This document shows positions 933 through 32,757 of a DNA stretch of 64,000 nucleotides, one piece after another (within the stretch, counting starts at the first letter, position 1; every line of letters starts with the position of its first letter). The stretch covers positions 1,116,001 to 1,180,000 of the forward strand of contig NZ_JACHBQ010000001.1 of NCBI RefSeq assembly GCF_014200405.1. Reading direction: 5' to 3'. Made by a program: the position numbers and the translations under genes. This stretch comes from Cryobacterium roopkundense. Its GTDB lineage: Bacteria > Actinomycetota > Actinomycetes > Actinomycetales > Microbacteriaceae. The notes below the pieces were generated by a model that had not been told where the DNA came from, did not search any database, and saw nothing but the letters and a program-made list of their open reading frames with translations.

Positions 933-963
933 TTGACTCTGTGGTGGGAATACGGGTTTGAGT
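933..963 (+). promoter_or_regulatory. MerR-type promoter, site 1 (SpoIIM-like gene)
   Basis: TTGACT at 933-938 and TTGAGT at 958-963 are separated by exactly 19 bases containing CTGTG and a degenerate right half-site. The ATG at 970 lies 7 bases after the -10 box, so the transcript is probably leaderless. It is one of eleven such sites in the window. Confidence 0.7.
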
Positions 964-969
964 GGTCCC

Positions 970-1632
970 ATGACTACACAACCAGGTTTCCGAACGACCA
1001 AACGACGCACCAACGTGCTTCTCAGACCATTTCAGGTCATTCGCGAAAACCGCCGACCGTTTGTCGTCCTGAACGTTGCGCTGTTCGGGCTGTTGGTGGC
1101 GGGTTTCATTGTGGGGATGCTTTTCCCAGAGCTGAGCGCTGGGCAGGTGAACGGGCTTGTCGAGGACGGCACGTTAGACCAAATCGCGCCGCTTCTCGGC
1201 AACGTCTGGTTCTTCGCGCTGGCCATTCTCTTCAACAACGCAGTAAACGTCGGCGCCGTAATCGTCTTGCCCTCCCTTGTCGTGCCGTTTGCCGGCATCG
1301 CATATTTCGGCTATAAAGTGGCCGAGATCGGCCTGACCCTCGCCGCAAGTGGATCGGACCTCTGGGGCGCGATGCTCCCACATCTCGTGACCGTGGTCGT
1401 CGAGATAGAGGCCTATGTACTCCTCGCACTCGGCGCCTACATCCTCGGTCGGTCCTGGATCCTCCCCCGAACAGTCGGTGCCTCCAACCGGCGCTGGGGC
1501 TACCTTCGTGGACTCCAGCAGTTCGGCTGGCTGATCCTGCCCGCTTTCGTGCTGCTGGTCATCGGCGCGCTCTACGAGGCGGTCACGCTGATCTACGTCA
1601 TCCTGCCTCGGGTGGCCGAGCTTGCCGGGTAG
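970..1632 (+). CDS. SpoIIM/DUF95-like membrane protein
   Basis: An integral membrane protein of about 220 residues resembling the stage II sporulation protein M (DUF95) family. A short basic N-terminus is followed by a membrane segment (LFGLLVAGFIVGMLF), a central pair of hydrophobic segments around the FNNAVNVGAVIV run typical of the family, and a C-terminal hairpin ending near ALYEAVTLIYVILP. The ATG at 970 is chosen over the TTG at 958 because that TTG is part of the -10 box. There is no Shine-Dalgarno sequence, which fits a leaderless message. Outside sporulators the family's role is poorly defined; members often sit beside ABC exporters or immunity genes. A damaged paralog lies at 24459-24828 under the same type of promoter. 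Confidence 0.8.
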   Translation: MTTQPGFRTTKRRTNVLLRPFQVIRENRRPFVVLNVALFGLLVAGFIVGMLFPELSAGQVNGLVEDGTLDQIAPLLGNVWFFALAILFNNAVNVGAVIVLPSLVVPFAGIAYFGYKVAEIGLTLAASGSDLWGAMLPHLVTVVVEIEAYVLLALGAYILGRSWILPRTVGASNRRWGYLRGLQQFGWLILPAFVLLVIGALYEAVTLIYVILPRVAELAG

Positions 1633-1647
1633 TGGTCAGGCTGTTAG

Positions 1648-1681
1648 CCCCGCCGCTCTCGTTGGAGCGAGGGCGGCGGGG
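1648..1681. terminator. Hairpin terminator between convergent genes
   Basis: A GC-rich inverted repeat, CCCCGCCGCTCTCG and its near-complement ending GGCGGCGGGG, separates the rightward SpoIIM-like gene from the leftward CPBP gene. A very similar hairpin lies at 30845-30885 after the MerR gene. Confidence 0.6.
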
Positions 1682-1700
1682 TGCCTACGTTGGGGGGAAC

Positions 1701-2612
1701 TTAGCCAGCAGACACAAGCACCTTGGGACCAGCTGCGCTATGTTTCTTGCGCTCGATCAGCCAGACCGTGCCTACTACGGCGACGTTCATAACCATCAGG
1801 ATGATCAGTGAGGCTCCAGGTCCGGAGCCGGAGGCGCGGTCAACTACGGTCGCGTCGTTGCCCGCGAAAAGGGCATTGATGATGCCCACGAGGACGTTAT
1901 TTGAGACATGGAGCGCCATCGCGGCTTCGAGGCCGCCGCTGATCAGCCCCATCAACACAGTGCAAGCGGAGAAAACAAACAGGTAGCTGACAAACCACGG
2001 GTCGATCGACACATGGACGAGGGCGAACAACGAACCCGAAAGGACGATGCCAAGGACGATCGCTGGGCGCACACCGCGAAACCACGACCCGGCCGCAGGA
2101 ACGACTACCCCTCTGAACGCGACTTCCTCGCCAGCGGCCTGCAGGGGAATAGCCAACAAAGTCACGAGAATGATGCCAATCGTGGTGGCCCCGACGTCGA
2201 AGCCGCCCCAACCTGCCGATTCGGGCGCGATGAGGGCAGTGGCAACAACACTGAGCCCGACCAGCAGCACCGAAGCCGCGAAATAGATTCCTAGACGCCG
2301 CCAATCAAACTTGCGGTTGTGGCTAAAGACGCTCCGCCACGAAATTCTTGCTAGCCGAGCCACCAATATCGTTGCGATGAGCGCCGTGATGGCAGTACTG
2401 ATTCCTGACGCCAGGATTGTCAACGGCGTAAGTCGAGGCTTCAGCGGATCCGCAGGACCTTCAATCATTACGACCGCTTGAAAAACTATGATCTGCACAA
2501 GCAGCAATAACACTGGTACGGATATCAGAACGACTAGCGATTTCCACCGGGGGAGACGGAAGTGAACCCCAAAGGGCCGGTCGGATAGGGTGGTGTGAAG
2601 CGGGCTGGTCAT
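1701..2612 (-). CDS. CPBP family intramembrane metalloprotease
   Basis: A multi-pass membrane protein with the CPBP (CAAX protease and bacteriocin-processing, Abi) signature: motif 1 is EEVAFRG, preceded by AAG, followed later by motif HVSID and the HVSNN run in the last third. The glutamates and histidines would bind the catalytic metal within the membrane. The ATG at 2612 is chosen because AGGAG lies six bases upstream; an open frame extends further but has no start signal. In bacteria CPBP proteins act in peptide maturation or bacteriocin self-immunity; the substrate here is unknown. Promoter site 2 lies upstream, giving a leader of about 57 bases. Two further relatives and several fragments occur in the window. 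Confidence 0.87.
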   Translation of the reverse strand: MTSPLHTTLSDRPFGVHFRLPRWKSLVVLISVPVLLLLVQIIVFQAVVMIEGPADPLKPRLTPLTILASGISTAITALIATILVARLARISWRSVFSHNRKFDWRRLGIYFAASVLLVGLSVVATALIAPESAGWGGFDVGATTIGIILVTLLAIPLQAAGEEVAFRGVVVPAAGSWFRGVRPAIVLGIVLSGSLFALVHVSIDPWFVSYLFVFSACTVLMGLISGGLEAAMALHVSNNVLVGIINALFAGNDATVVDRASGSGPGASLIILMVMNVAVVGTVWLIERKKHSAAGPKVLVSAG

Positions 2613-2675
2613 ATCTGTCTCCTGAAAGAAATTGTGATCGCGCACCGGCGGGCCGCGCGGGTCTCCTCTCTCACG

Positions 2676-2706
2676 AGTACACACCTTGTGCTTACAACAC
2701 GGTCAA
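2676..2706 (-). promoter_or_regulatory. MerR-type promoter, site 2 (CPBP protease gene)
   Basis: On the minus strand TTGACC (2706-2701) and TGTACT (2681-2676) are 19 bases apart; the spacer carries GTGTTG...CACAAGGT. It drives the CPBP gene starting at 2612. Confidence 0.7.
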
Positions 2707-2967: not shown

Positions 2968-3975
2968 TTAGGCGGCTAGTTCGAGCCCTTCATTCTCGAG
3001 GGGTTTGGCGGCTGGTTTGTTGATCCATGCCGTCGCGGGAATGGACAGGATCTTTGGTGCCTGGGTCGTGCTGAATCGCTCTGGGAAGCGTGCGCGTGCC
3101 GCGTCCAGCGTCGCCGCCCGTGCCACGGCCTTCGCCTCGGCGAGGCCGTAGTGAACGTCGGCTGGCGTGTTGAGGCCGATCCCGGAATGGCGATGTTCGT
3201 GGTTGTAGCCGTCGACGAATGAGGCCATGAACGTCTTCGCGTCGGCGAGGGAGCCGAAGCGTTCGGGGAACGTCGGTGCGAATTTCAGGGTCTTGAACCA
3301 CGCCTCGCTGTAGGGATTATCGTTACTCACCCGAGGCCTCGAGTGCGACCTGGTGACCTCCAGATCAGACAACAGCGCGGCGACGGTCTTGGACGTCATC
3401 GACGTGCCGCGGTCGGCGTGAACGACCTGCGGGACGCCGTGAATGCCGAAGATCTCCTTCATCATCTCCACCGCCAGCTCTCCCGATTCCGACGCGTGAA
3501 CATACGCGCCGACGATGTAGCGGGAGTAGATATCGATCATCACGTAAGCATCGAAGTACTTGCCCTTGATCGGGCCGGCAAGTTTCGTAATATCCCAGCT
3601 GAGCACCTGGCCAGGTCCCGTGGCCGTCAGTTCCGGGATCGCCCGGGCCGGGTGGCGTGCCAGGCGGCGGCGGTCCTTGACCTGCTGGTTCTCGTTCAAC
3701 ACCCGATACATCGTTGATATTGAGCACAAGTAGGTGTCTGCGTCGAGTAGCTGGGCGTAGATCTGGATCGGTGGCAGGTCAACGAACGACTTCGAGTTGA
3801 CGACGTCGAGGATCTCCCGGCGGCCCTCGTCGCCGATCTTGTTCGCCGGGACCTGAGCCGGTCCGGGCACCGAGATGCGTCGTTTGCGCGTGGCGGTTGC
3901 TCGAGGGATCCCGACTAGGTCGGCCGCGACGCGAGTCGAGATGCCTCGGCTGGCCAGTTCGCGGTACGCGGTCAT
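2968..3975 (-). CDS. IS3-family transposase OrfB (DDE integrase)
   Basis: A DDE recombinase of 335 residues with an N-terminal helix-turn-helix-like stretch (VAADLVGIPRATATRKRR) and an rve integrase core. The catalytic acidic residues lie in SWDITKL, HADRGTSM and SEAWFKTLK, in the order and spacing of IS3-type OrfB. The HRHSGIG motif typical of the family follows. Its ATG overlaps the stop of OrfA by one base (TAATG), so it is probably made by translational coupling rather than programmed frameshifting. It catalyses cutting and joining of the element ends. Confidence 0.92.
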   Translation of the reverse strand: MTAYRELASRGISTRVAADLVGIPRATATRKRRISVPGPAQVPANKIGDEGRREILDVVNSKSFVDLPPIQIYAQLLDADTYLCSISTMYRVLNENQQVKDRRRLARHPARAIPELTATGPGQVLSWDITKLAGPIKGKYFDAYVMIDIYSRYIVGAYVHASESGELAVEMMKEIFGIHGVPQVVHADRGTSMTSKTVAALLSDLEVTRSHSRPRVSNDNPYSEAWFKTLKFAPTFPERFGSLADAKTFMASFVDGYNHEHRHSGIGLNTPADVHYGLAEAKAVARAATLDAARARFPERFSTTQAPKILSIPATAWINKPAAKPLENEGLELAA

Positions 3976-8325: not shown

Positions 8326-8347
8326 AAGCGCTGCGACACCGTTGAGG

Positions 8348-8549
8348 CCGAGCCAGCCGGGCGCGTCGGGGTAGTTGCAGCCGAGGAGGATCATCGGTGC
8401 GTGCCCGAGTCCCCAGGTGACGCCCGGCAACACAACCGCCGGTACCGTTCCGAGCGGCATGAGCTTCGGGAGAAGCCAGCCTCGCCAGCCGAGTTCCTCT
8501 CCGAGTGCCGGAAGCAGGTTGAGGAACGCCGCCACGGGGAGCATGAGCA
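8348..8549 (-). pseudogene. CPBP protease fragment, duplicate of part of the gene at 9628-10623
   Basis: These 202 bases match 9950-10151 in the same orientation with about nine differences by eye. They encode the central catalytic part (LGEELGWRGW... to ...YPDAPGWLG), but both ends of the gene are missing. The frame runs into the GGCTGC repeat on one side. The active motif EELGWRG is intact, while WHAP has become GHAP. It is a non-functional duplicate. Confidence 0.85.
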
Positions 8550-10623: not shown

Positions 10624-10649
10624 GGGAGCTCCTCCGGAGGTGTGGTCGC

Positions 10650-11322: not shown

Positions 11323-11353
11323 TTGACTCTGTGCCGAGGACACGGTGTGTTCT
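11323..11353 (+). promoter_or_regulatory. MerR-type promoter, site 3 (DUF418 gene)
   Basis: TTGACT (11323-11328), a 19-base spacer with ACTCTGTG-N5-GACACGGT, and TGTTCT (11348-11353). The DUF418 start at 11383 follows with AAAGGAG. Confidence 0.72.
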
Positions 11354-11382: not shown

Positions 11383-12417
11383 ATGCCGCCTCGTCTCACA
11401 CCCGGCGCAACCCAGCGCTGGGCCGTCATCGACGCACTGAGAGGGTTCGCGCTCTGTGGAATCTTGCTAGTCAATATCCCCGACATCGTGCAGCTCGGAT
11501 ACGGGCTGGAACAAGACAGCGCGCCCGTCGCAGGAAAAGAAGCACTGGAATGGTTGGTCCAAACTCGATTCGTTCCAATTTTCACGTTCCTTTTCGGAAT
11601 GAGCCTGACTTTCGTGGCGCATGGAGCGCGCCGTGGTGAGCGACGACCGTGGTCGGCACTTGTCGCCCGGTTGATGGCGCTCTTCGTCATCGGGCTTCTG
11701 CATTCCCTGATTTATCCCGGAGAGGTGCTGCGTGAGTACGCCGTCATTGGGCTGTTGGTCGTACCGGTCGTGCTTCTCGCCCCACGAACCGTGCAGCTTG
11801 TCCTCGGCGTCGTGCTCGTGGTCGCCGCCTATGCCGCAACCGGTGGCGGACTCGCCGCCACACCTGGACTCATGTTGTTGGGGGCCGCTCTGGGCGCCTT
11901 TGGTCTCGGCCAAGCGCTTGACACCAGATCGCGGGCAGTGGTGGCGACGTTCGCGATTTCGATGGTGCTGCTAATTCCAGGTCTGCTCTGGCAGGGGACT
12001 GCACCCGGTGATCCCCGGTTCTTGACCCCCGGGTCCGTGGCCGGCCTCATTATGGCTTCCATCTACGTAACCGGTCTGTCTTTCCTGTGGAACACCCCCG
12101 CGCGAAAGCTTGTGACAGTGCTCTTCGAACCTATTGGGCGGATGTCGCTGAGCAACTACGTGGGAGCATCCGTGATCGTCTTCTCTGTCAGCGCTGTCGT
12201 CGACTTCACCACCATGACCACGATCGGGCCCGTTCTCCTGCTGGCGCTCGGCATCCTCGTCATGCAGAACGTCGCCAGCCGCGTGTGGTTGCACTACTTC
12301 AGGTACGGGCCCGTCGAATGGATCTGGCGCATGGTCACCTGGCGCGAGCGTATTTCCCTCGGCGCAGCGCCACCGACAACCCCACGCCGGGACGCGGCGG
12401 GTGCCGCGGCCGTCTAG
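11383..12417 (+). CDS. DUF418 family membrane protein (YeiB-like)
   Basis: A membrane protein of 344 residues. The N-terminal RWAVIDALRGFALCGILLVNIP is diagnostic for DUF418 and related acyltransferase-like membrane proteins. The loop VPIFTFLFGMSL and the C-terminal RMSLSNYVGAS are further family landmarks. Relatives are thought to move or modify envelope components, but the biochemical role is not established. AAAGGAG lies before the ATG, and promoter site 3 is 30 bases upstream. Its stop codon overlaps the stop of the convergent MFS gene (CTAG). Confidence 0.87.
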   Translation: MPPRLTPGATQRWAVIDALRGFALCGILLVNIPDIVQLGYGLEQDSAPVAGKEALEWLVQTRFVPIFTFLFGMSLTFVAHGARRGERRPWSALVARLMALFVIGLLHSLIYPGEVLREYAVIGLLVVPVVLLAPRTVQLVLGVVLVVAAYAATGGGLAATPGLMLLGAALGAFGLGQALDTRSRAVVATFAISMVLLIPGLLWQGTAPGDPRFLTPGSVAGLIMASIYVTGLSFLWNTPARKLVTVLFEPIGRMSLSNYVGASVIVFSVSAVVDFTTMTTIGPVLLLALGILVMQNVASRVWLHYFRYGPVEWIWRMVTWRERISLGAAPPTTPRRDAAGAAAV

Positions 12418-15637: not shown

Positions 15638-16372
15638 TCAGGCGGAAAGGGAGACGCCTTCCTCGGACGCGCCCGTGCGAGCCCGCTGGAGAACGTCTTG
15701 CTGGGCAGAGTTGTACAGTTCGCGGAGCGCCTCGGAGATCGTTTGTCGCGCTTCGTGGTCGCGCCGCCATCGACCGGGACGACGATGGCCTGACCACGGG
15801 CGGTCGGGGGATCGCCAGTTGGCTCTCGCGGCGACCATTCTGTGGGCCACGCGCTCCCGTGTGGTTTCGTCTGCGTTGCTGTGCAGGCCATCGAACTCGA
15901 GCCTGATCGTGTCAGGCTCCGTGAGCACCATCTGCCTCAGTCCGGACACTGATTCCGCTGCGGAAAGCGTCGTGAAGATGTGGACAAGCGCCTGGTCTGC
16001 CACAGACAGCCGCGACGCCAAGGCTTCGAAGCCCCTGGGAGTGTGAACGGGTGCATGATCGCGCAGAATCGCCGCCATGTCAGATCGGGCACGATGCAAA
16101 CGCTCGATCTCCTCCTGCACGCATACGTCGAGTTGCTGCAGGCCACCCAGCACCACGACGCCATCCTCATCTGCGCGCACCTGCGCTAGCGGAACTCCCA
16201 GTTCCGCTATGCGCCGCACCTGAATCAGCCGCACGAGATGATGCACTTGGTACTGCTTGTATCCGTTGTCTTTGCGCTCGGGAGCGTCGAGCAGCCCAAG
16301 CGAGTGATAGTGCCGAACCGCATTGACCGTCGTTCCCGCGAGATCCGCGAGTTCACGAGTGCTCCACGTCAC
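15638..16372 (-). CDS. MerR family regulator (paralog 1)
   Basis: The N-terminal MerR HTH is clear: TWSTRELADLAGTTVNAVRHY, then the wing NGYKQYQVHHLVRLIQVRR. A dimerisation helix and a C-terminal domain of ~160 residues follow, without metal-binding cysteines or a TipA-like domain I can recognise. The start is the GTG at 16372 with GGAGG upstream. The DNA-binding part is very close to that of the MerR at 30036, so both probably recognise the same operator. It lies downstream of an ABC exporter pair on the same strand (about 100-base gap). I see no 19-bp-spacer promoter directly upstream of this gene. Confidence 0.9.
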   Translation of the reverse strand: MTWSTRELADLAGTTVNAVRHYHSLGLLDAPERKDNGYKQYQVHHLVRLIQVRRIAELGVPLAQVRADEDGVVVLGGLQQLDVCVQEEIERLHRARSDMAAILRDHAPVHTPRGFEALASRLSVADQALVHIFTTLSAAESVSGLRQMVLTEPDTIRLEFDGLHSNADETTRERVAHRMVAARANWRSPDRPWSGHRRPGRWRRDHEARQTISEALRELYNSAQQDVLQRARTGASEEGVSLSA

Positions 16373-21784: not shown

Positions 21785-21951
21785 GGCCGGTCGACCCGCA
21801 CTTGACCGTGTGGTCGCAACACGGTGTGAACTGAGCGAAGAGCACAGCGGATGTCGATGGACCCATTCTCCATGTCCTCCTTGCAGACGCCGATCGAGAT
21901 GCTCAAAAAGTGCGAATAGCAACGAAATCACCCCGATGAAAGCTGGCGAAA

Positions 21952-22332
21952 ATGACAGACCTGGATGCGATCACCAAGCTCGAGGCAGCGATCAACTCCC
22001 ATGACGCGACGAGCATCGCAGCGTGCTTCTCCGCCGACTATGTGTCCGAAACCCCTCATCATCCGTCTAGGAATTTCGAGGGTCGTGCAACCGTGCTGCG
22101 TAACTGGACGGCGATTCTCAACCGATTTCCAAATCTGACGGCGCGAGTTCTTCGTCGCGCGATCAATGGCGACGACGTCTGGTCGGAATGGGAGATGGAC
22201 GGCGCCGTGGCTGACGGCACTTCGGCGGGAATCGTCGGCCCCGTAATCTGGCGCACCGATTCGAACGGCCTGGTGTCCTGGGCGCGTTTCTACCTCGAGC
22301 CTGCAACCGCTCGGCCGATCAGGCATTCCTGA
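21952..22332 (+). CDS. SnoaL/NTF2-like protein
   Basis: A protein of 126 residues with a small cone-shaped NTF2 fold: helix LEAAINSHDATSIAACFSADYV, then strands ending in WARFYLEP. SnoaL-like proteins include cyclases, isomerases and ligand-binding proteins; the activity is not predictable. It precedes a small membrane protein gene on the same strand (27-base gap). Confidence 0.78.
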   Translation: MTDLDAITKLEAAINSHDATSIAACFSADYVSETPHHPSRNFEGRATVLRNWTAILNRFPNLTARVLRRAINGDDVWSEWEMDGAVADGTSAGIVGPVIWRTDSNGLVSWARFYLEPATARPIRHS

Positions 22333-22560: not shown

Positions 22561-22869
22561 CCAAGCTCCGAGCACCTTGAGTCCGACCCACAGCGGTGGT
22601 CGCCCAGCATCCTCCGTGCCCTCGCGCGCGGCGCCGAACGATTCACAGACATCACGGCGGTCGTGGCCGGTCTTTCCGCGAGGATGCTCACAGTGCGCCT
22701 GAAGACACTGGAGGCAGCCGAACTCGTCCACTGGACCGTCGTGCCCACCACGCCCGTCATGGTCCGCCATCACCGGACACCCCGCGGCGTTGACCTCATC
22801 ACCGCGCTACGGCCGATCGCAGGACACGTTCAGCGCTGCGAGGGCGAGGGCGGCCCGATCGGGTCATAG
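22561..22869 (+). pseudogene. HxlR-type regulator lacking its N-terminus
   Basis: The frame following the stop at 22558 has no start codon but encodes an HxlR winged helix: RWSPSILRALARGAERFTDI, then LSARMLTVRLKTLEAAELV, ending at a TAG at 22867. The first ~15 residues and the start are missing. A GTG at 22663 could start only a shortened product without the first helices. It overlaps the tail of the convergent hydrolase gene by a few bases. Confidence 0.7.
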
Positions 22870-24405
22870 CCGGCACGTTGCGTCAGCCGGAGGGGTCGTG
22901 AGATCGACAAGGTAAGCGACGACGGCGGAGTCGATACACTCGTTTGCCGAGATCACTGACCCGTGCTGCGCCCCCTCAACGGTCAGCAGGCTTCCACCCA
23001 ACGTTTCGGCGAGGTTGATGCCACCCTGATGCGGAGTGACCGGGTCACCCGTCACTGACACTGTCAATGTTGGAGGCAGACCCTCGATATCGGTCGCATA
23101 AGGGAAACCCAGCGTCGGTTCAACCGGCCAGCCCTCACACAGGGCGGGCGCGGCCTTCACAGGCGTCCCCGGGTCGAGGAAAGGGGCGGCGGCGAGTGCG
23201 GCGCCGACGAGCTCAGCCTGGCCCGCCGGGCTGAAGCGGTCCTCGTCCAGGCAGTCGATGGCCACCGTCGCCTCCGCGGAATTGGCATAGCCGCCGTCGG
23301 AGGACCGTTCGTGGTACAGGTCTCTGAGCCAAAGAAGGGTGTCACCACGACCCGCAGCGAGTTCCGTGAGGCCAGCGATGACGAGCGGCCAGAATTCGGC
23401 ACTGTACATCCCCATGACAACGCCGTCGTTGGCTGCCGTGTAGCTCAGCTCACGACCTTCGCCGGCTGGGAGCGGCGTCTCGAGGAGGGGACGCACGAGC
23501 TGTTGGTACGTCTGTGTCGCGGAGTCAGGTTGCGTGCCGAGTGGGCAGTCGCCCTGTGTCGCGCAGAATTCCGCGAGTGACTCGAAGCCTTGCTGCAGCC
23601 CCGCCCATTGCGAGACGTTTCGTTCTTGAGTCCCCGTATGCGGATCCATCGCACCGTCGAGCACCAGGGCTCGCACGTTCTCCGGGAACATTTCTGCGTA
23701 CACGGCACCCAACCTGGTGCCGTAGCTCACCCCGACGTAACTGAGATGGTCGTCGCCGAACACGGCCCGCAGAACATCCAAGTCCTGGGCCGCATCCCTC
23801 GTTCCCAGGTGCGCTAAGACGTCGATGCCGCCGACGCTGTCGGCGCAGGCGTCGACAAGAGGGCGCGAATCTGGCAGAGACAACAGACTCGCGGCCAAGG
23901 CGTCATCGTCACGCTCTCCATCGGTGTAGCAGTCGATCGCCGGTGTGCTGGTGCCGGTTCCGCGTGGATCAAACCCGACGAGATCGAATTGCGCGGTGAT
24001 GGGACTGTCCACCCACGCGTTCGCCACATCAGCCGAGTACCCGATCCCGGGTAGTCCGGGACCCCCAGGATTGATGAAGAGCGATCCGATCGGCTCCGTG
24101 CCTGTCGCGGGGATGCGGAAGACAGCGATTTGCGCGGTACCAACGTCGGGGTTCTCGTAGTCGATGGGAACCTCGACGTGCCCACACTCACCCGGAATGA
24201 GGACATCGCCGGTTTGGACGGGCGTCTCGCAGGGCTCGAGAGTGAGCTCTTGATCGTAGAAGCTCTCGAGCGACACCGCTGCTTCCTGCGACTGGGGCGA
24301 GGGAACACACGCGCTCAACAGCAGCACCACCGGCACTATTGCGGCGAGCGCACGGAGGCGACTTCGGACTGGACCTAATGGTCGGTGCATAATTTTCCGC
24401 GACAT
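22864..24405 (-). CDS. TAP-like alpha/beta hydrolase lipoprotein (tripeptidyl-aminopeptidase family)
   Basis: A secreted, lipid-anchored hydrolase of about 513 residues. The signal peptide ends in lipobox LLSAC with Cys33 as the lipid site. The alpha/beta hydrolase core has the oxyanion run NPGGPG, the nucleophile elbow GVSYGTRLG with Ser227, and a C-terminal TAP-like domain with PVTPHQGG and the catalytic His in GAQHGSV. Relatives are the Streptomyces SlpD/E and Tap peptidases, which remove peptides from polypeptide N-termini. The ATG at 24405 lies exactly 7 bases after the -10 box of promoter site 4, so a leaderless message is likely. It is a paralog of the gene at 30901. Confidence 0.88.
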   Translation of the reverse strand: MSRKIMHRPLGPVRSRLRALAAIVPVVLLLSACVPSPQSQEAAVSLESFYDQELTLEPCETPVQTGDVLIPGECGHVEVPIDYENPDVGTAQIAVFRIPATGTEPIGSLFINPGGPGLPGIGYSADVANAWVDSPITAQFDLVGFDPRGTGTSTPAIDCYTDGERDDDALAASLLSLPDSRPLVDACADSVGGIDVLAHLGTRDAAQDLDVLRAVFGDDHLSYVGVSYGTRLGAVYAEMFPENVRALVLDGAMDPHTGTQERNVSQWAGLQQGFESLAEFCATQGDCPLGTQPDSATQTYQQLVRPLLETPLPAGEGRELSYTAANDGVVMGMYSAEFWPLVIAGLTELAAGRGDTLLWLRDLYHERSSDGGYANSAEATVAIDCLDEDRFSPAGQAELVGAALAAAPFLDPGTPVKAAPALCEGWPVEPTLGFPYATDIEGLPPTLTVSVTGDPVTPHQGGINLAETLGGSLLTVEGAQHGSVISANECIDSAVVAYLVDLTTPPADATCRL

Positions 24406-24411: not shown

Positions 24412-24442
24412 AGCAGACACTATGTGGACGGCACCGAGTCAA
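24412..24442 (-). promoter_or_regulatory. MerR-type promoter, site 4 (TAP-like hydrolase 1)
   Basis: Minus strand: TTGACT (24442-24437), a 19-base spacer with CGGTGCCG...CACATAGT, and TCTGCT (24417-24412). The ATG of the hydrolase is 7 bases downstream. Confidence 0.7.
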
Positions 24443-24458: not shown

Positions 24459-24828
24459 CTAACTCGTCAGTAGTGCGGGAATGAGGTAGATGGTCTCATA
24501 GGCCTCATAGAGGGAGCCGACGATGTGAAATGCGAATGCTGCCAGGCCCATCCAGCCCAGCTGGCGCAGGCCATGAACGTACCCGCTGCGATGGTTCAGC
24601 TTTCCGACCCTAGCGGGTCGCAGCCACGCCCGTCCGAGCCAGCAGAAACGCGACGTCGTCGAGTGATCCCCCCGCCACGACAGATGCGTTTCGGGATGCG
24701 GTGATGGTTGGAAACAGCGCACCCACGGCCATGCCGCTAAGTATCAGTCCATACACGAAGACGTTCGTTGCTAGATATGCGCGGAGATTTCCACGGATGA
24801 TCTGCAGGGGACGGGTGAAGAGTCGCAT
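24459..24828 (-). pseudogene. SpoIIM-like gene with an out-of-frame internal deletion
   Basis: The first part (ATG 24828, RPLQIIRGNLRAYLATNVFV...) aligns with the N-terminus of the SpoIIM-like protein at 970. The last part, in another frame (GRAWLRPARVGKLNHRSGYV...), aligns with its C-terminus. About 100 central residues are missing and the join near 24635 is out of frame, so only a ~72-residue product could be made. The promoter (site 5) and a GGAGC ribosome site are intact, which suggests recent loss. Confidence 0.82.
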
Positions 24829-24886: not shown

Positions 24887-24917
24887 AGTGGACACCGCCT
24901 TGTCGCGACAGGGTCAA
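24887..24917 (-). promoter_or_regulatory. MerR-type promoter, site 5 (broken SpoIIM-like gene)
   Basis: Minus strand: TTGACC (24917-24912), a 19-base spacer beginning CTGTCGCGACA, and TCCACT (24892-24887). The right half-site is the least conserved of the set. Confidence 0.6.
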
Positions 24918-25155: not shown

Positions 25156-26437
25156 CTATCGGATCGGGCCGTCGTAGCGGAGCCAGAAGTCGATGGCTGC
25201 CGCACGCGGTCGAGGGGACATGACGCCGCCGTTCGGACCAAAGCCCATGACGTCGTCAGAGGCGTGTGCAACCTTCGCCCAGGATGGCAGGCCGCTTCCG
25301 TTAGGGTCGCCGGTCTGCACGACGTTGAGCCAGTATCCGCTCATCTGGTCGCGGAGCATGTAATCGGACTCTTCGTAAACGTTGTCGTTGTCGGTGCCGA
25401 GGTTGTCGTACGCATAGGCGACTTCGGCGCCGTGGTAGGCACCGAACTTCTCGAGGCCCTCCGTCGGGGGAACGTGCGAGAAGAAGTACAGGTACGCGTT
25501 CTCATCGCCGCTGTCTGTCTGCAGCCGGGCCCAGCGGAGCATCGCCCGAGTCATGACACCGTCGGTGTGCGCCTGGAGCGAGGAATCGAGAACACGCTTC
25601 TCTGTATCACCCGGGTAGATTCCCACGAATCGCTCCGCTTCGTCGCCGTACTTCTCGCGCACCGACACCTGGTAGTCGGAAACTGTCGTCTCGGGCGGGC
25701 TTGCCAGGGCCAGCGACGCTTCGTCCGCGTTGCTCCCCACGAGACTCGGGACGCCCAACTGCTCTCCTGGCGCGTAGATCTCGGCGGCCGCGATTTTGAG
25801 TACGTACCCGTCTACGGAGGGGCGCCAGTGGCTGGTGAGCGAACCCGCCAGATGTTGAGGGCGAGACTCTCCGCGCTCACGGGATACGGGTCGAGGAATG
25901 TGTCCTCGAATGGCACCTTGACCATCTGCGCGCGCGCGTGAAGAAAGTCGACGTGCTTTGGATGGGTGCGGAGGAAAAGCGGTCGCCGGTGAATACTCCC
26001 GTGCGCGGCTGGAGGGGCTGGGGAGCACGCCAGCGCAGCTTGCCCACCGGGGCGTGGGCATAGGGGATGCCAGCGAAGATCCCTGTTGATCGGTCATCGA
26101 TGAGTACGCCACGCACCAGGCCGTCGTGAGTCGGGACAACCTCGGTGGGCTGGGGATCATTGCCTCCGGCGTCGCGAACCGTCGGCGGCGGGTACATGCC
26201 GACAGCCGTGGTGCACACGATCGCCGCGGCCAGCATCCAGGCGCCGGTCTGCAGTAACACATGGCCTCGAAGCCATCGGCGGGCGGCGGCGCCAGCCGCC
26301 ACCAGCAGGACGCCGATGAGTGCCCAACCCCACCATGGGCTTCGATTCAGCCACAAGACTAGCGCCGCGGTGGCCGTGAGCGGCACCAACGGAAGCCAGC
26401 GTATGAGCGATTTCGTGATGCCGGCATTCCGGCTCAT
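25156..26437 (-). pseudogene. Membrane-anchored type B carboxylesterase, frameshifted and internally deleted
   Basis: The ATG at 26437 overlaps the stop of the preceding serine hydrolase (ATGA). Three membrane segments are followed by the start of a carboxylesterase domain (FAGIPYAHAPVGKLRWRAPQ). Near 25935 the frame shifts in a CG-repeat (GCGCGCGCG): the correct continuation, MVKVPFEDTFLDPYPVS to LNIWR, is in another frame. The central region with the nucleophile GESAG is absent. The third frame resumes at WRPSVDGYVLKIAAAEIY and runs to a normal C-terminus with Glu (NADEASL) and His (GAYHGAEV) regions. It cannot be a working esterase. Confidence 0.85.
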
Positions 26438-27555
26438 GGAGAGCAGATGGCGGTGTCGATCAGGCCGCGGAGTCGGGCATCCGCTTCTATAGACGTAGCG
26501 TTCTGAGTTACCGCGATGGCGGCGGCGCGGCCGTCTTCCGTAGCCGCCACCCGGCTGACAGTGCCGGGAACATCGCCACCGTGTCCCCAAGCTGTCACTC
26601 CGCAGGAGACCTCAAAAGAGATGAGGCCCAGCCCGTAGGCGGCGCCCTCCCAGAGCGAATCGGCCGGGATCGTCTTGTGCATTTCGTCGAGCTGCGCATC
26701 CGCCACGACGTCGCCGTGCGCGAGTGCGGAGTAGAACAAGGTCAGGTCCTCGGTCGTCGACACCATCGCGCCGGCCGCGTGTCCCCAGGAAGGATCGAAG
26801 TCGGTGAAATCGACCGGGGAATCGCCCAGAGGAATATAGCTGTGAGGATGATGGCCACGGATGACTTGTTCGCCCTGTTCGGGGAAATAGGTGTCGTCGA
26901 GACCGAGGGGAATGACGATGCGTTTGTCTATCTCTTCGGCCAACGGCCTGCCTGAGACGGCCTCGATGATCAGCCCAGCCAGGATGTAGTTTGCATTGCT
27001 GTACGCGAAGCTCGCCCCAGGCGCGTTCGAGACGGGATGCGTGAAGGCGAGATCGAGTGAGGCCCGCGGTGATATGTATCGGTGCTGCCATTCCAGCAGG
27101 TGGTCGCCGATGTCGCCGTCCATGTCGGGCAGCCCGCTCGTGTGCTGCAGCAGTTGACGCACGGTGATGTCGTGTCCGGTTACCTGCGGGTGCCGGATTA
27201 CTCCCGGGAGGTAGGTCTCGACAGCCGCATCGAGAGAAATGGTACCAGCGCCGACCAGTTGCATGACAATGGCGGCGGTGAAAGTTTTGGTGTTGCTCCC
27301 GATCCTGATTTGGCTGTCGGCCCGCACCTTGTCGGGCAGGCCGAGCTCCACCACACCAGACGCGTAGGTGCGAACCCTCTCGCCGGAGGAGCGAACGGCG
27401 ACCAATCCTGCGGGCCACGCGTCGACGGTCATGGTGCGCTCGAGAGCGGCGCCGACAGGGTCGCGGGCCAGTGAGTTGTGCGTGGCCCCAGAGGGAATGC
27501 CGGACAGGATGAACATCAATGCGGATGCGGCGGCGATGGTCGGTGACATCTTCAT
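26434..27555 (-). CDS. Serine beta-lactamase/D,D-peptidase family hydrolase (class C type)
   Basis: An exported serine hydrolase of 373 residues with a signal peptide over about residues 1-25. The beta-lactamase (Pfam PF00144-type) active site is present: S87-N-T-K90, Y185-S-N187 and a final WGHGG box in place of KTG. This combination is that of the D-alanyl-D-alanine carboxypeptidase R61/esterase group, so it may act on cell-wall peptides, beta-lactams or esters. Promoter site 6 ends 10 bases before the ATG, so the leader is very short or absent. The next gene on this strand, a broken carboxylesterase, overlaps by ATGA. Confidence 0.88.
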   Translation of the reverse strand: MKMSPTIAAASALMFILSGIPSGATHNSLARDPVGAALERTMTVDAWPAGLVAVRSSGERVRTYASGVVELGLPDKVRADSQIRIGSNTKTFTAAIVMQLVGAGTISLDAAVETYLPGVIRHPQVTGHDITVRQLLQHTSGLPDMDGDIGDHLLEWQHRYISPRASLDLAFTHPVSNAPGASFAYSNANYILAGLIIEAVSGRPLAEEIDKRIVIPLGLDDTYFPEQGEQVIRGHHPHSYIPLGDSPVDFTDFDPSWGHAAGAMVSTTEDLTLFYSALAHGDVVADAQLDEMHKTIPADSLWEGAAYGLGLISFEVSCGVTAWGHGGDVPGTVSRVAATEDGRAAAIAVTQNATSIEADARLRGLIDTAICSP

Positions 27556-27564: not shown

Positions 27565-27595
27565 ATGAGAATCTATGTGCTCAGCACAGGGTCAA
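27565..27595 (-). promoter_or_regulatory. MerR-type promoter, site 6 (serine hydrolase)
   Basis: Minus strand: TTGACC (27595-27590), a 19-base spacer with ACCCTGTG-N5-CACATAGA, and TCTCAT (27570-27565). It forms a divergent pair with site 7. Confidence 0.75.
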
Positions 27596-27644: not shown

Positions 27645-27675
27645 TTGACTGTGCGCCGGGAACACAGTCTTGACT
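27645..27675 (+). promoter_or_regulatory. MerR-type promoter, site 7 (broken CPBP gene)
   Basis: TTGACT (27645-27650), a 19-base spacer with GTGCGCCGGGAACACAGT, and TTGACT again at 27670-27675. The ATG at 27682 is 7 bases after the -10 box. Confidence 0.7.
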
Positions 27676-27681
27676 ATCCCC

Positions 27682-27995
27682 ATGGACAAGATTCTCGATT
27701 CGACATCTGCACGCCTACGATTCTCCAGGTCTTCATCCAGTTCGGTCTGGGATCTGTGTACTACCTGGCACGTCGCTTCAGCGGTTCCTTGGTGCCGGCG
27801 ATGATCTTGCACGGCCTGTGGGACTTCTCGACCTTCTCGTCCAACGTCCCCTACGCCGGGATTGCCTCGCCGTTCATCGGAGTGGCCGCAGTAGTCGTGG
27901 TCCTGGTTCTTCTTCGCCGGGACAAGCGCAGGGGCTTGGGCCACGCGGCGCCCCTCCGTGAGGCAGTGCTGACGGAGGTCCCGCATAGAGCCTGA
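27682..27995 (+). pseudogene. Truncated CPBP protease gene
   Basis: The ATG at 27682 (MDKILDSTSARL) is correctly placed for leaderless initiation from site 7, but its frame stops after about 39 codons. A different frame from about 27717 encodes the last part of a CPBP protein (TILQVFIQFGLGSVYYLARR, then the HGLWDFS metal-ligand motif and a final membrane segment). The catalytic EExxxR part is gone, so an internal out-of-frame deletion has removed most of the gene. Confidence 0.8.
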
Positions 27996-28097: not shown

Positions 28098-29045
28098 TCA
28101 TGCTGGTGGCCGGTTCTCGCGGGCGGCTGCGATCGTCGCGAGCGCCAATCTCGCCGTCTCCGCGACGAGCGCGTCATCGTATGCCGTGTCGGGGTCGTTT
28201 CGAGTTGTGAAGACCGTGATGACCAACGGAATGCCGTCCGGGGGGATCACGACGGCGACGTCGTTGCGGATCGCTCCGGCGCCTCCGGATTTGTCGGCGA
28301 CTTCCCAACCCTCCGGCGCCCCGGCACGAATCAGGGTGTCCCCGGTCGCATTTCCCGTCATCCAGTCGATGAGGGTGGAACGGTCGGCGTCATCCAGAAT
28401 CTCGCCCGAGACGATTCGCTCGAGGGTCTTCGTGAAGGCTCGCGGAGTCGACGTGTTGGCCGTGTTGTCGATGGTGACCGTGTTCAGACCAGGCTCGTTG
28501 TCGACGACGTCGGTCACGGTGTCGCCGTACCCTTCGAGGATCTTGTCGAGGCCGGCTGGGCCTCCGAATTGCTTGAGCATGAGGTTCATGGCGGTGTTGT
28601 CACTCGTGCGTATGGCCGCCATGGCGACATCACCGAGTGGCAGGCCTGTGTCGAGGTGTTCGCTGGTGACAGGGGAGTAGCCGGACTCGAGGACATCCGC
28701 CTCAGACCAGGTGACGACACGGTCCAGCTCTTCAGGCGTCGTCTGGTCGAGCAGGGCTGCTGCGGCCAGCATTTTGAGAGTCGATGCGTAGCCAAAGCGG
28801 CTGCCGCCTCGGTAGTCGAGGGTCGAGCCGTCAGCGGTATCGGTCACGCTGAGCCCGATCCGAGCGTCGTACTGGTCCTCTAGTTCGCCTAGTGCGGTCT
28901 GCAACGCTGAGTCCGCCGGTTCCGTGGCGGCCCGCGAAGGCATACCGGGTGGCGCGTTCGGCTCCGCCGCGGTGCATCCGGAGGATGCGACCATCAGTAG
29001 CGATCCGAGGACGATCGTCGTCCACCGTTTGTTCTGGGTAGCCAT
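28098..29045 (-). CDS. Class A beta-lactamase, lipoprotein
   Basis: All class A active-site motifs are in place: S88-T-L-K91 (SxxK), S148-D-N150, E184-P-G-L-N188 (Glu-166 equivalent) and K251-S-G. The signal peptide ends in VASSGC with Cys24 as the likely lipid site, so the enzyme is probably tethered outside the membrane. The length of 315 residues is normal. The ATG at 29045 has AAGGAGG upstream. It lies among genes with MerR-type promoters, but I find no such site directly upstream. By family it hydrolyses penicillin-type beta-lactams; spectrum unknown. Confidence 0.93.
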   Translation of the reverse strand: MATQNKRWTTIVLGSLLMVASSGCTAAEPNAPPGMPSRAATEPADSALQTALGELEDQYDARIGLSVTDTADGSTLDYRGGSRFGYASTLKMLAAAALLDQTTPEELDRVVTWSEADVLESGYSPVTSEHLDTGLPLGDVAMAAIRTSDNTAMNLMLKQFGGPAGLDKILEGYGDTVTDVVDNEPGLNTVTIDNTANTSTPRAFTKTLERIVSGEILDDADRSTLIDWMTGNATGDTLIRAGAPEGWEVADKSGGAGAIRNDVAVVIPPDGIPLVITVFTTRNDPDTAYDDALVAETARLALATIAAARENRPPA

Positions 29046-29166
29046 GACTGCCTCCTTAGTCTTGTGTTGTGTCGGAGCCAGGCCGCTCGGGCGCAATTCT
29101 CCCAGCTTGATGCCTCACTCACCCCGGTAGTACCCATGCAGGCGAAGCAGGGCTGGGGCTTCCTCA

Positions 29167-29262: not shown

Positions 29263-29829
29263 TCACAAGCCGAGGAGGCCGAGGACGCCGGACGCCGCGA
29301 TCGCGATGACACTCGTCCACAGCACAATCGCCACGATCTGCCACAGCATGACCCAGCCCTTCCGGACGCCTGTGCTGACGAAAAACGCGGCGGTCAGCAT
29401 CGTGGGGAGGGCGAGAGGGGCGAGGATGCTCGTGCCGGGGACTCCGAACTTGACCATCCAGCGACCCAGGCGCGCCCGGCCCTTCGAGCGTCCGTTCGGC
29501 TTCGGGTCAAGCGAGTCAGGCGCGTCGGGCGCGTCGGCGGGCAGCTCCTGCCCGCCAGCACCTACGAGTACAGGCTTCGCCGCACTCCGCGCGACGACGC
29601 GCTCGCGGATCCGGGACCCCAGGAAGACCACGCCGAAGACGCAAAGGATGTTACCGGTCGCGCCTGCGATTGCGGCTACGACAGGGTTGATACCCGCGAT
29701 AATGCCGAAGGCTGCTGCACCTTCGCCCTCGATATAGGGGATCGCACCGGCAATTGCGACGATCAAGGGGTGGAGGATGTCGGGAACCTGCTCGATCAAG
29801 CTCCGAAGCCACTCGTAGGGGGTGTCCAT
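29263..29829 (-). CDS. Small multidrug-export-like membrane protein
   Basis: A membrane protein of 188 residues. It has the IPYIEGEGAAAFGIIAG motif in the first membrane region and GVPGTSILAPLALPTMLTAAF in the second half, with a hydrophilic loop rich in Asp/Pro between. This resembles the proteins annotated as small multidrug export (COG2426-like), with a re-entrant glutamate reminiscent of DedA-type folds. Transport activity is not established for most members. Promoter site 8 lies upstream with a leader of ~57 bases and AGAAAGG before the ATG. It is divergent from the MerR gene at 30036. Confidence 0.75.
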   Translation of the reverse strand: MDTPYEWLRSLIEQVPDILHPLIVAIAGAIPYIEGEGAAAFGIIAGINPVVAAIAGATGNILCVFGVVFLGSRIRERVVARSAAKPVLVGAGGQELPADAPDAPDSLDPKPNGRSKGRARLGRWMVKFGVPGTSILAPLALPTMLTAAFFVSTGVRKGWVMLWQIVAIVLWTSVIAIAASGVLGLLGL

Positions 29830-29892: not shown

Positions 29893-29923
29893 AGCAAAGA
29901 CCGTGTGCTCGCCACAGAGTCAA
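29893..29923 (-). promoter_or_regulatory. MerR-type promoter, site 8 (small multidrug-export-like gene)
   Basis: Minus strand: TTGACT (29923-29918), a 19-base spacer with ACTCTGTG-N5-CACACGGT, and TTTGCT (29898-29893). The -35 box is 25 bases from that of divergent site 9. Confidence 0.75.
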
Positions 29924-29948: not shown

Positions 29949-29979
29949 TTGACCCTGTGGCGGGAACATAGTTTTCACT
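29949..29979 (+). promoter_or_regulatory. MerR-type promoter, site 9 (MerR gene, probable autoregulation)
   Basis: TTGACC (29949-29954), a 19-base spacer with ACCCTGTG-N5-AACATAGT, and TTCACT (29974-29979), about 57 bases before the MerR start. Its presence upstream of a MerR gene is the main reason for assigning the whole set to this family. Confidence 0.75.
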
Positions 29980-30035: not shown

Positions 30036-30812
30036 ATGACGTGGAGCACGCGCGAGGTGGCAGAACTCGCCGGGACGACGGTGAACACGGTCCGTCATTA
30101 CCACCAGACGGGCATGCTCGAACAGCCCGAGCGAACATCCAATGGGTATAAGCAGTACGGAGCCCGCCATCTGGTGAGGCTGCTGCAGATACGTCGGCTT
30201 CGTGACCTCGACGTGCCCCTCGCGCAGATCGAGTCAATGGATTTCGGCGGAGAGACACCGGCGACGGCGCTGAGGGCGGTCGACGCTGACCTGGCTGTGA
30301 GCATCAAGCGGCTTACGCGTGCTCGTGCCGAGATCCGGGCGATCCTGGACGGGACTACGGCCACCGATGTGCCGGCGGGCTTCGAACACCTTGCCGGCCG
30401 GTTGTCCAGCTCGGAGCGTGCCCTCATGCTCGTGATGTCGCAGCTCTACGACGAGTCGGCGATGGCCGACATGAAGAAGATGGTTGAGGCGGAGGCGGAG
30501 GATGCCGGCGTCGAATTTGATGCGCTGGCTCCCGACGCTGATGACGCCACCCGGCAAGAACTCGCCGAGGCGCTTGCCCCGCAGCTCGCTCAACACATCA
30601 TTGACTACCGATGGCTGGCCGACCCGAAGGCGCATTCTCCGAAGGGTTCGCGGGTTACGCAGGAGACACTTCTCGAGGCCGCCGTGGAACTGTACAGCGA
30701 ATCCCAGCTGGACGTCCTCGCACGCGCGAGCGTCATCGCGACCGAGCTGGCCGCTGAGAGCAACAACCCGACCTCGGGCACAAACGATCCTGGAGACCCG
30801 CCAGTTCTCTAG
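30036..30812 (+). CDS. MerR family regulator (paralog 2)
   Basis: A regulator of 258 residues. The MerR HTH is TWSTREVAELAGTTVNTVRHY, and the wing is NGYKQYGARHLVRLLQIRR. A dimerisation coil and a helical C-terminal domain of ~150 residues follow, without recognisable metal or drug-binding motifs. The DNA-binding half is nearly the same as in the MerR at 15638. The ATG at 30036 follows AAGGACGGAG. As a MerR protein it should bend and untwist DNA at promoters with a 19-bp spacer, which is what all eleven sites have. The inducer is unknown; an envelope-active compound is inferred from the targets. Confidence 0.9.
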   Translation: MTWSTREVAELAGTTVNTVRHYHQTGMLEQPERTSNGYKQYGARHLVRLLQIRRLRDLDVPLAQIESMDFGGETPATALRAVDADLAVSIKRLTRARAEIRAILDGTTATDVPAGFEHLAGRLSSSERALMLVMSQLYDESAMADMKKMVEAEAEDAGVEFDALAPDADDATRQELAEALAPQLAQHIIDYRWLADPKAHSPKGSRVTQETLLEAAVELYSESQLDVLARASVIATELAAESNNPTSGTNDPGDPPVL

Positions 30813-30900: not shown

Positions 30901-32493
30901 CTACCGCGAGCAGCGCGCCCCTTCCTCAGGAAGCTCGAGGTTGATCAGGTAGTCCGCCACTCTCTCGTCTACACAGTCGATTCCGGAGGAGATCGTGCCG
31001 TGTTCGTTGACATCGACGGTTAATAGTCGAGCGCCGAGGGTTTCAGCGAGGCTGATCCCGCCGTCATGAGGCGTTACCGGATCTCCGATGGCGGAGGTCA
31101 CGAGTACCTGGGGAAGTCCCTCGATGTCCGTGGCGTACGGGAAGCCGAGCGTGGATTTGCCGGGCCAGTCCGCGCATCCATTCAGTGACGCAGGGTCGGT
31201 GCCCGAGTCGATGAACGGTGCTGCTTCGTTCACCTTGTTGCCGAGGTCGCTCATCTCCTTCTCAGTGAGGCGTTCCTCGTCGACGCAGTTGATCGCGAAA
31301 GTCGCCTCCAAACTATTGGCGTATTCTCCGGTCGCCGAGCGGCCGTGGTGGCCGTCTCTCAGCGCGAGAAGCGCATCCGGCCGGCCTGCTTGCAGCTCGG
31401 CCAGCCCGTGTGCGATGCCTGGCCAGAGACTCTCCGAATACAAACCGGAGAGAATTCCGTCGCCCGCGGAGACGAAGGTCAGCTCACGGCCGTCGGCTGC
31501 CAGTAGCGGCTCCGTGACGAGCGGCTGTAACAGCCCCTGCACCGCAGCGGTCGCCAGTGCGGGGTCGGTCCCGAGTGGGCACGGATCCTGCGTTGCACAG
31601 AACTCTGCAAAACGGTCGAAGGCGGCTTGTATCCCCGCGGATTGTTGTAGCTGGCGTCCCTGGGTGTCTTGGAGCGGGTCCACGGCGCCGTCGAGAACGA
31701 GCGCGCGAACCTTGTCGGGGAACATCTCGGCGTACACAGTGCCGAGGCGCGAACCGTAGCTCAGGCCCGCGTAGGTGAGCTTGTCGTCGCCGAGAGCGGA
31801 GCGGAGGATGTCCATGTCACGCGCGACATCACGTGTTCCGAGGTGCGCGAGCATCTGCTCACCCCCTGACCCTTCAGCGCACTTGTCTGCGATCGCGCGG
31901 GTGGTCTCTTCTGTCCAGGTGCCGAATGCAGAGAGGGGTGCACCGGCGTCGCGTTCTTCGCCGGTGTAGCAGTTGACCGAGGGGCTCGTCAGTCCGACTC
32001 CACGCGGGTCGAACCCGACAATATCGAACTGCTCGGCGATGGGTCCGCCCGTCCAGACCGCCGCCATCCAGGCAGCAAAAGTCGTCGCCTGCGTTCCGGG
32101 TCCGCCCGGGTTGACCACAACGGAACCCAAACGGTCACTGCCACTGGCAGCGATACGAGACACCGCGATCTCGACCATCTCTCCGCCGAGGTTTTCGTAG
32201 TCGAGCGGAACCTCCAGCGTCGCACAATCCGCCTTTTCTGCTGCCGCGATGATCTGGGGGACGGGTGGCTGAGAACTCACAATCGTTGGGTCACAGGGCC
32301 CGAACACGAGATCCTGCTCCATGAACTGCTCGAGTCCTGCGCCACCTGCTTTGTCGTCATCGGTGGGAGAGGCGCAGCCCGCAAGGAACAACAGGGAGGC
32401 GACCGCTCCGGAGGCAAGTACCGCTGTCATCCATCGGCTGCGGGGAGTGTCATCGTGTCGACTCCGCTTTCGGTCGTCGGTCAGATTCGTCAC
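30901..32493 (-). CDS. TAP-like alpha/beta hydrolase lipoprotein 2
   Basis: A paralog of the hydrolase at 22864, of 530 residues. The signal peptide ends in lipobox LAGC with Cys40. The core has NPGGPG, the nucleophile elbow GLSYGSRLG with Ser245, and the TAP-like C-terminal domain (PVTPHDGG, VNEHGTI with the catalytic His). The GTG at 32493 overlaps the stop of a 33-codon upstream frame (GTGA), so translation is probably coupled to it. Expected location is the outer face of the membrane, acting on peptides or peptide-like compounds. Expression is from promoter site 10. Confidence 0.88.
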   Translation of the reverse strand: MTNLTDDRKRSRHDDTPRSRWMTAVLASGAVASLLFLAGCASPTDDDKAGGAGLEQFMEQDLVFGPCDPTIVSSQPPVPQIIAAAEKADCATLEVPLDYENLGGEMVEIAVSRIAASGSDRLGSVVVNPGGPGTQATTFAAWMAAVWTGGPIAEQFDIVGFDPRGVGLTSPSVNCYTGEERDAGAPLSAFGTWTEETTRAIADKCAEGSGGEQMLAHLGTRDVARDMDILRSALGDDKLTYAGLSYGSRLGTVYAEMFPDKVRALVLDGAVDPLQDTQGRQLQQSAGIQAAFDRFAEFCATQDPCPLGTDPALATAAVQGLLQPLVTEPLLAADGRELTFVSAGDGILSGLYSESLWPGIAHGLAELQAGRPDALLALRDGHHGRSATGEYANSLEATFAINCVDEERLTEKEMSDLGNKVNEAAPFIDSGTDPASLNGCADWPGKSTLGFPYATDIEGLPQVLVTSAIGDPVTPHDGGISLAETLGARLLTVDVNEHGTISSGIDCVDERVADYLINLELPEEGARCSR

Positions 32494-32591
32494 TGCCCGG
32501 GACCTTCCTGGTACGGGGTGATGTCGATGCTTTCTGTGGGCGGTAAGGCGAGCGCTGCGGGGTCGATTGGCTCTGGGCGGTGCACGATCAT
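32490..32591 (-). CDS. 33-residue upstream small ORF coupled to the lipoprotein hydrolase
   Basis: The ATG at 32591 follows AAGGAGAACC, the best ribosome site in this region. The frame encodes 33 residues (MIVHRPEPIDPAALALPPTE, then SIDITPYQEGPGQ) and stops in TGA overlapping the hydrolase GTG by four bases. It has no membrane segment or signal. It may be a leader that couples or tunes translation, or a small protein in its own right. Confidence 0.6.
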   Translation of the reverse strand: MIVHRPEPIDPAALALPPTESIDITPYQEGPGQ

Positions 32592-32638
32592 GGTTCTCCT
32601 TAAACTGAGGTTCTGGTTGCCACCTGCGTGACTCCTGA

Positions 32639-32669
32639 ATGAAAGACCCTGTGGATGGCACAGGGTCAA
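32639..32669 (-). promoter_or_regulatory. MerR-type promoter, site 10 (TAP-like hydrolase 2)
   Basis: Minus strand: TTGACC (32669-32664), a 19-base spacer with the perfect dyad ACCCTGTG-N5-CACAGGGT, and TTTCAT (32644-32639). It is the most symmetrical operator of the set and a good reference for the motif. Confidence 0.8.
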
Positions 32670-32726
32670 GCCCCGGCAACGAATTCGCTGTCATCCACGA
32701 CGCGACGGTCCTCACAACCCATCGGT

Positions 32727-32757
32727 TTGACTGTGTCCTAGGCACATGGAGTTCACT
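32727..32757 (+). promoter_or_regulatory. MerR-type promoter, site 11 (ABC exporter)
   Basis: TTGACT (32727-32732), a 19-base spacer with GTGTCCTAGGCACATGG, and TTCACT (32752-32757). It is divergent from site 10 and upstream of the ABC ATPase gene. Confidence 0.72.

Follow-up and report, generated by a model that had tools for sequence, protein, structure and literature searches.

A predicted MerR-controlled regulon of twelve promoter/operator elements in Cryobacterium roopkundense and its relatives

Promoters activated by regulators of the MerR family have a recognizable architecture: in one survey all 28 confirmed examples have -35 and -10 boxes separated by 19 or 20 bp (PMC7722741). That survey and a second source describe the -11 adenine as the most conserved base, which is flipped out to begin strand opening, and center the model of BmrR action on it (PMC9909328, PMC7722741). 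Here we describe a set of twelve promoter/operator elements, together with a MerR-family regulator (MerR1) as their proposed controller, in a 64,000-nucleotide stretch of the Cryobacterium roopkundense genome (contig NZ_JACHBQ010000001.1, positions 1,116,001 to 1,180,000; hereafter the window). The closest named homologues of MerR1 come from Cryobacterium, a genus of the Microbacteriaceae within the Micrococcales.

MerR1 possesses the N-terminal winged helix of the family, and its structure, predicted as a single chain with a mean pLDDT of 85.7, continues into a long helix (residues 75-104) and further helices between residues 117 and 243, from which a long dimerization helix and a separate C-terminal part can be recognized in the model; confidence is lower (62-65) in the blocks 61-80 and 101-110. 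A palindromic operator inside a -35/-10 spacer of 19-20 bp is likewise as in MerR activators. In sequence, the best PDB match of MerR1 is the N-terminal domain of TipA (2vz4, E 2.8e-12). The TipA class (TipAL, SkgA, Mta) is reported to autoregulate and to activate several proteins, and it shares with MerR1 a helical C-terminal part; the TipAS domain itself (PF07739) is not among the matches listed for 50 MerR1 homologues (25 of 26 Pfam families, E<=1), and no known effector domain stands out among them. The matches listed from the fold search are dominated by the N-terminal domain and cover mostly residues 1-108. BmrR and EcmrR resemble the present system in placing a dyad inside a 19-bp spacer and in size (BmrR chains have 276-277 residues), but no GyrI-like domain is listed for MerR1 or its homologues, the promoters of the window have a -10 box lacking the -11 adenine, and about a dozen promoters are found here as against one efflux gene. 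The metal and redox sensors CueR, ZntR, CadR and SoxR also have the winged helix and long helix, and the outer operator bases found here resemble the ZntR consensus ACTCTGGAGT... (PMC1526738). In contrast to these proteins, MerR1 has no cysteine and falls far under the NCBIfam cut-offs. A metal sensor of the MerR, CueR, ZntR or CadR type was rejected on these grounds (the best score is 45.1 bits, where the cut-off is 151.45), as was SoxR, given that no cysteine is available for its four-cysteine [2Fe-2S] site and that its model is not among the matches listed.

An earlier note on this DNA had claimed eleven promoters of identical MerR-type architecture. On inspection all eleven proved to have TTGACY, exactly 19 bases and a -10 box of the form T-N4-T. 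The dyad in the spacer approximates ACYCTGTG-N5-CACARRGT, and the copy at 32639 is perfect, as had been stated. A twelfth element, absent from the note, lies at 21802-21832 on the forward strand. The elements, six on each strand, are spread over about 32 kb. A union pattern derived from the eleven sites themselves, whose scan of their own genome is hence not independent, matched with up to one mismatch at 11 places in the 4,531,652 bases, all within the window, and its backwards control at none. A tighter pattern gave seven exact and four one-mismatch matches, all inside the window, which also held one of three places at two mismatches and one of 20 at three; read backwards, it gave 16 matches at up to three mismatches. 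With a scoring matrix trained on the twelve window sites these score 32.5-42.4 bits, the next-best position in the window reaching 9.7. No match was found in Rfam.

The matches of the tighter pattern in other genomes provide independent evidence for the motif, unlike the union scan of its own genome. In a family-level sample of 150 genomes the exact motif occurs in 12 (backwards matches, 0), with 23 exact matches in the 11 genomes other than that of C. roopkundense, and a MerR1 homologue (query 30039-30812, E<=1e-20) is encoded by 24, including all 12 motif genomes. An order-level sample of 297 genomes contains the exact motif in 15 (backwards, 0) and a MerR1 homologue at the stricter threshold of E<=1e-40 in 38, including 13 of those 15. 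Eight genomes (G000, G002, G049, G078, G079, G106, G141 and G142) are common to both samples, the motif being present in G000 and G078; the latter is placed in the genus of C. roopkundense. Taken without regard to relatedness, the co-occurrence has a hypergeometric p of about 1.6e-11 in the family and about 2.8e-11 in the order. The proposed scan of the complete genome and of related genomes thus found the motif confined to the window in C. roopkundense and recurring in relatives along with MerR1. One 40-kb stretch of genome G108 (C8:155000-194999; L075 and L076) is denser than the window itself, with 17 sites of at least 18 bits and four MerR homologues.

The anatomy of the promoters was studied in a less biased set, for which only the first 24 matrix columns were applied to 33 stretches of relatives at a threshold of 17 bits; this yielded 84 sites, while the reversed matrix gave none in the same stretches at 14, 16, 18 or 20 bits. 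Columns 26 and 31, neither of which had a part in the selection, hold T in 87% and 89% of these sites, so that the 19-bp spacer is genuine rather than imposed by the way the sites were picked. The -10 box reads roughly T-Y-N-A-C-T (twelve window sites; L074-L105 and L107). Information outside positions 0-33 does not exceed 0.42 bits per column (84 sites), and a dyad centered on position 14 is 69% complementary, as against 14-37% for seven other centers (94 sites). In 14 of 91 targets, namely those of sites 933 and 24412 and of 12 sites in relatives, the chosen start codon lies 6-8 nucleotides past T31, suggesting that these messages may be leaderless. Thirteen of these starts lie at 7-8 nucleotides, which would place T31 near -7; this supports the chosen -10 register, and an alternative register was rejected.

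Further evidence comes from 58 loci picked solely for a MerR1 homologue, the two MerRs of the window included (other stretches of relatives in the matrix scan had partly been picked for holding the motif). A site of at least 13 bits is present within about 1.5 kb in 51 of the 58, compared to two with the reversed matrix. In the window the merR1 gene is divergent to a gene for a small export protein, with one site before each, and both intergenic sites are retained in C. lactosi and in Cryobacterium sp. PH31-O1. They are better conserved than their surroundings in the comparison to the former (52/62 versus 89/147 bases identical), though not in that to PH31-O1 (57/62 versus 134/147). Moreover, the residue at one position of the recognition helix (MerR1 residue 17, the N of TTVNTVRHYH) co-varies with the operator: at operator position 10, all 64 sites of Asn-type MerRs have T and all nine sites of Lys-type MerRs have C, the latter even though the matrix favors T; Arg is mixed (C in two of four). 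The Lys-type operators, resembling CTGCCCC...GGGCATGG, form a second class (L092-L094, L096, L098, L153, L155) that is accompanied by Lys-helix MerRs, except in L098, a stretch without a MerR. Given the co-occurrence, the adjacency and this pairing of helix residue and operator base, the MerR1 subfamily is very probably the regulator of the sites, a pairing that rests on genome comparison; the earlier assignment to a MerR-type regulon is thus strongly supported, also by the site before merR1 itself.

Several observations weigh against this reading. The exact motif is absent from 12 of the 24 family genomes and 25 of the 38 order-level genomes that have a MerR1 homologue, many of them possessing looser sites, and seven of the 58 MerR-centered loci have no site. 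Conversely, genome G194 has three exact sites and yet its best MerR1 match is remote (E 2e-14, 34%); a divergent pair of sites in this genome lies by a CPBP relative (59%, compared to the CPBP remnant of the window). G167 has a single match with a poor dyad and only distant MerRs. The C. lactosi stretch L107 keeps the divergent site, but the export gene was not found in it. The pairing of Lys with C may reflect one or a few clades, or changes in the tree. The -11 base (position 27), for which the BmrR model requires A, is seldom A, at 8% of the 84 sites, the less biased figure, and at one of the 94 full-matrix sites, for which the window-trained matrix disfavors A; none of the 94 has a -10 box of the form TANNNT. 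Finally, targets encoding flavin monooxygenases, short-chain dehydrogenase/reductase (SDR) and SnoaL-like proteins are not envelope genes.

To characterize the target set, the 94 sites were assigned to 91 open reading frames (ORFs), three sites having none; ORFs and start codons were picked by length and a GC3 rule rather than by a gene caller, and 89 were compared to Pfam after omission of two apparent wrong-frame ORFs. The largest clusters are MerR (15), the small export protein (14), the family of the membrane protein at 970-1632 (5) and the TAP-like hydrolases (5), followed by CPBP, serine hydrolase, ABC ATPase and flavin monooxygenase clusters of four each; with 14 of the 91 ORFs, the small export or DedA-like protein is the commonest target besides MerR. 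Pfam families, which may overlap in one protein, number CPBP/Rce1 8, TAP-like 6, PF00144 5, luciferase-like monooxygenase 4, ABC 4, PF13354 3, DUF418 3, PrsW 3 and MFS 2. By crude hydropathy and ORF calling, a hydrophobic segment is present in 49 of 67 non-MerR targets of at least 120 residues (L107 included), compared to 237 of the 837 ORFs from the window and L074-L105 that served as background. The targets are enriched in membrane and exported proteins though not exclusively so, and the statement that all of them are of this kind applies to most, the flavin monooxygenases, SDR and SnoaL-like proteins being otherwise.

Taken together, these data make it probable that the twelve elements are promoters under the control of MerR1, which would act by repression and ligand-triggered distortion to turn on envelope, efflux and hydrolase genes in response to an antimicrobial. 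In this scheme MerR1, presumably as a dimer, would bind the dyad in the 19-bp spacer and, without ligand, keep the promoters off; with ligand bound it would kink the DNA and thereby bring the -35 and -10 boxes into line. By analogy with the MerR family, from which both repression and distortion are drawn, this would switch on merR1 itself and the divergent small-export gene, together with genes for the unnamed membrane family, CPBP, DUF418, TAP-like and beta-lactamase-fold proteins and the ABC exporter. The likeliest trigger would be a noxious compound, such as a small antimicrobial, for which the helical C-terminal part, itself free of cysteine, would be the sensor. Judged from gene content, antimicrobial defense is the likeliest role; the earlier proposal of envelope defense or antimicrobial immunity fits the target list in this respect, though as a suggestion rather than a result.

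The main rival to the antimicrobial role is envelope repair, in which the same regulon and regulator would answer to internal envelope damage or an imbalance of lipid carriers instead of a bound drug. Here MerR would respond to an intermediate of lipid or membrane nature, and repair of the membrane would fall to the DedA-like protein, the intramembrane proteases and the unnamed membrane family. We regard this as rather unlikely, even though the most frequent non-regulator target resembles PF06695 (matched at E<=1 by 15 of its 35 homologues), a family reported to be homologous to DedA/VTT (PMC7818093), and though the CPBP (8/89) and PrsW (3/89) targets and the membrane enrichment point the same way; the targets also include possible drug-modifying or drug-exporting proteins, with PF13354 3, ABC 4, MFS 2 and flavin monooxygenases 4 among the 89. 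It is more doubtful still that MerR2, the second MerR of the window, is the main protein to bind the sites, or that both MerRs do so as cross-talking paralogs. MerR2, whose HTH had been noted as nearly the same, does share the recognition-helix Asn and 41% identity with MerR1, and some relatives encode several such MerRs (five matches in G108, three in G078), but no site was found at the operon of MerR2 when 16360-16480 and 18150-18420 were scanned (best scores, -3.5 and -4.7 bits), as against 51 of 58 MerR loci with one, so that its part in the regulon is putative. In the region 15638-18183 MerR2 follows an ABC exporter whose ATPase best matches a lantibiotic-protection ATPase model, below its cut-off; the ATPase at 32844, which is driven by a site, is 46% like it, whereas the motif is absent from this region.

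A different kind of explanation would take the elements for copies of a spreading repeat, such as an insertion scar or a mobile promoter, that share no regulator. Their clustering within 32 kb, close to a transposase-like gene with an integrase core (2968-3975), and the position of two sites before gene remnants are in line with this, but conservation ends at the promoter borders, with no longer repeat unit apparent in the flanks of the 84 sites, and in the family sample every genome with the motif also encodes a MerR of the one subfamily. A repeat origin was rejected as largely refuted by these observations and is very improbable.

As to novelty, MerR promoters are of a known kind, the new features here being the size of the marked regulon, the unrecognized C-terminal part of the regulator, the form of the -10 box and starts that may be leaderless. 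No description of such a circuit is among the matches listed in an open-access library, and within this scope the claim that it is undescribed holds. A bolder proposal, which we offer tentatively, is that of a new MerR subfamily with an unrecognized helical sensor domain, commanding an expandable antimicrobial-immunity regulon in Micrococcales from promoters without the -11 adenine, some of which would start on the AUG itself. If true, MerR activation would exist in a variant form tied to leaderless messages, either with strand opening that dispenses with the canonical flipped -11 A or with a different sigma factor. The absent -11 adenine offers a direct test of the generality of the MerR distortion model. 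For a group of Micrococcales, moreover, a regulon can now be defined by sequence, its operator code can be read and a regulator can be proposed. Since the operator marks the target genes, it suggests what several membrane families without known function may do, namely the small export/DedA-like, 970-1632, CPBP and DUF418 families.

The features of the window are collected in the table. The sites at 24887 and 27645 (CPBP) precede broken remnants, and a full-length relative of the latter has its own site in C. lactosi (L107). The name "SpoIIM-like" given to the protein at 970-1632 was not upheld, as three members of its cluster have no Pfam match even at E<=1. Similarly, the export protein at 29263-29829 matches no Pfam family at E<=1, though 15 of its 35 homologues match PF06695 weakly (best 4.6e-4) and one PF09335, and a fold search gave nothing below E 2. 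The class A beta-lactamase gene directly after the export gene may be co-transcribed with it.

Table. Promoter/operator elements, MerR genes and target genes of the window. Positions are those of the whole stretch; minus-strand sites are quoted by their left ends.
Feature	Position	Strand	Remarks
MerR-type promoter/operator	933..963	+	5' of membrane-protein gene 970..1632; putative leaderless start, ATG 970
MerR-type promoter/operator	2676..2706	-	5' of CPBP protease gene
MerR-type promoter/operator	11323..11353	+	5' of DUF418 gene
MerR-type promoter/operator (twelfth)	21802..21832	+	candidate target SnoaL-like ORF, 119 nt downstream
MerR-type promoter/operator	24412..24442	-	5' of TAP-like hydrolase gene; putative leaderless start
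MerR-type promoter/operator	24887..24917	-	weakest of the twelve; precedes broken gene
MerR-type promoter/operator	27565..27595	-	5' of serine hydrolase gene
MerR-type promoter/operator	27645..27675	+	precedes truncated CPBP remnant; C at operator position 10
MerR-type promoter/operator	29893..29923	-	5' of small export protein gene; divergent from 29949
MerR-type promoter/operator	29949..29979	+	5' of merR1 (30036..30812); putative autoregulation
MerR-type promoter/operator, perfect dyad	32639..32669	-	5' of second TAP-like gene
MerR-type promoter/operator	32727..32757	+	5' of ABC exporter genes
Membrane protein	970..1632	+	target of 933; clusters with four other site-driven proteins
CPBP/Rce1-like intramembrane protease	1701..2645	-	PF02517; target of 2676
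DUF418 membrane protein	11383..12417	+	PF04235; target of 11323
MerR2, second MerR	15638..16372	-	41% identical to MerR1; same recognition-helix Asn
SnoaL-like protein	21952..22332	+	PF12680; possible target of 21802
TAP-like alpha/beta hydrolase	22864..24405	-	PF00561, PF08386; lipoprotein-type signal by eye; target of 24412
Broken homologue of 970-1632 protein, two pieces	24480..24813	-	behind site 24887
Beta-lactamase-fold serine hydrolase	26434..27555	-	PF00144; best NCBIfam AmpH, below cut-off; target of 27565
ORF with CPBP C-terminal remnant	27645..27995	+	PF02517 positions 57-92 of 93; 22.9 bits, cut-off 22.4
Class A beta-lactamase	28098..29096	-	NF033103, 259.4 bits, cut-off 200
"Small multidrug efflux protein" (PF06695/DedA-like?)	29263..29829	-	named from homologues; target of 29893
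MerR1, MerR-family regulator, 258 aa	30036..30812	+	MerR_1/MerR domains; proposed regulator
TAP-like hydrolase, second	30901..32493	-	PF00561, PF08386; target of 32639; start 145 nt after site
ABC exporter (ATPase 32844-33770, ABC-2 permease 33792-34649)	32844..34649	+	PF00005, PF12679; target of 32727

Some minor observations concern these and neighboring genes. Among the matches listed to plasmid records (20 of 116) only the TAP-like and ABC ATPase genes are represented. ARAGORN calls a tRNA-Ser at 32007-32104 inside a TAP-like gene, which is probably spurious. Two more gene remnants lie at 25156-26262, a carboxylesterase ORF whose matches in relatives are split into several pieces, and at 8341-8550, a CPBP fragment that is 89% like 9628-10653 over 70 residues.

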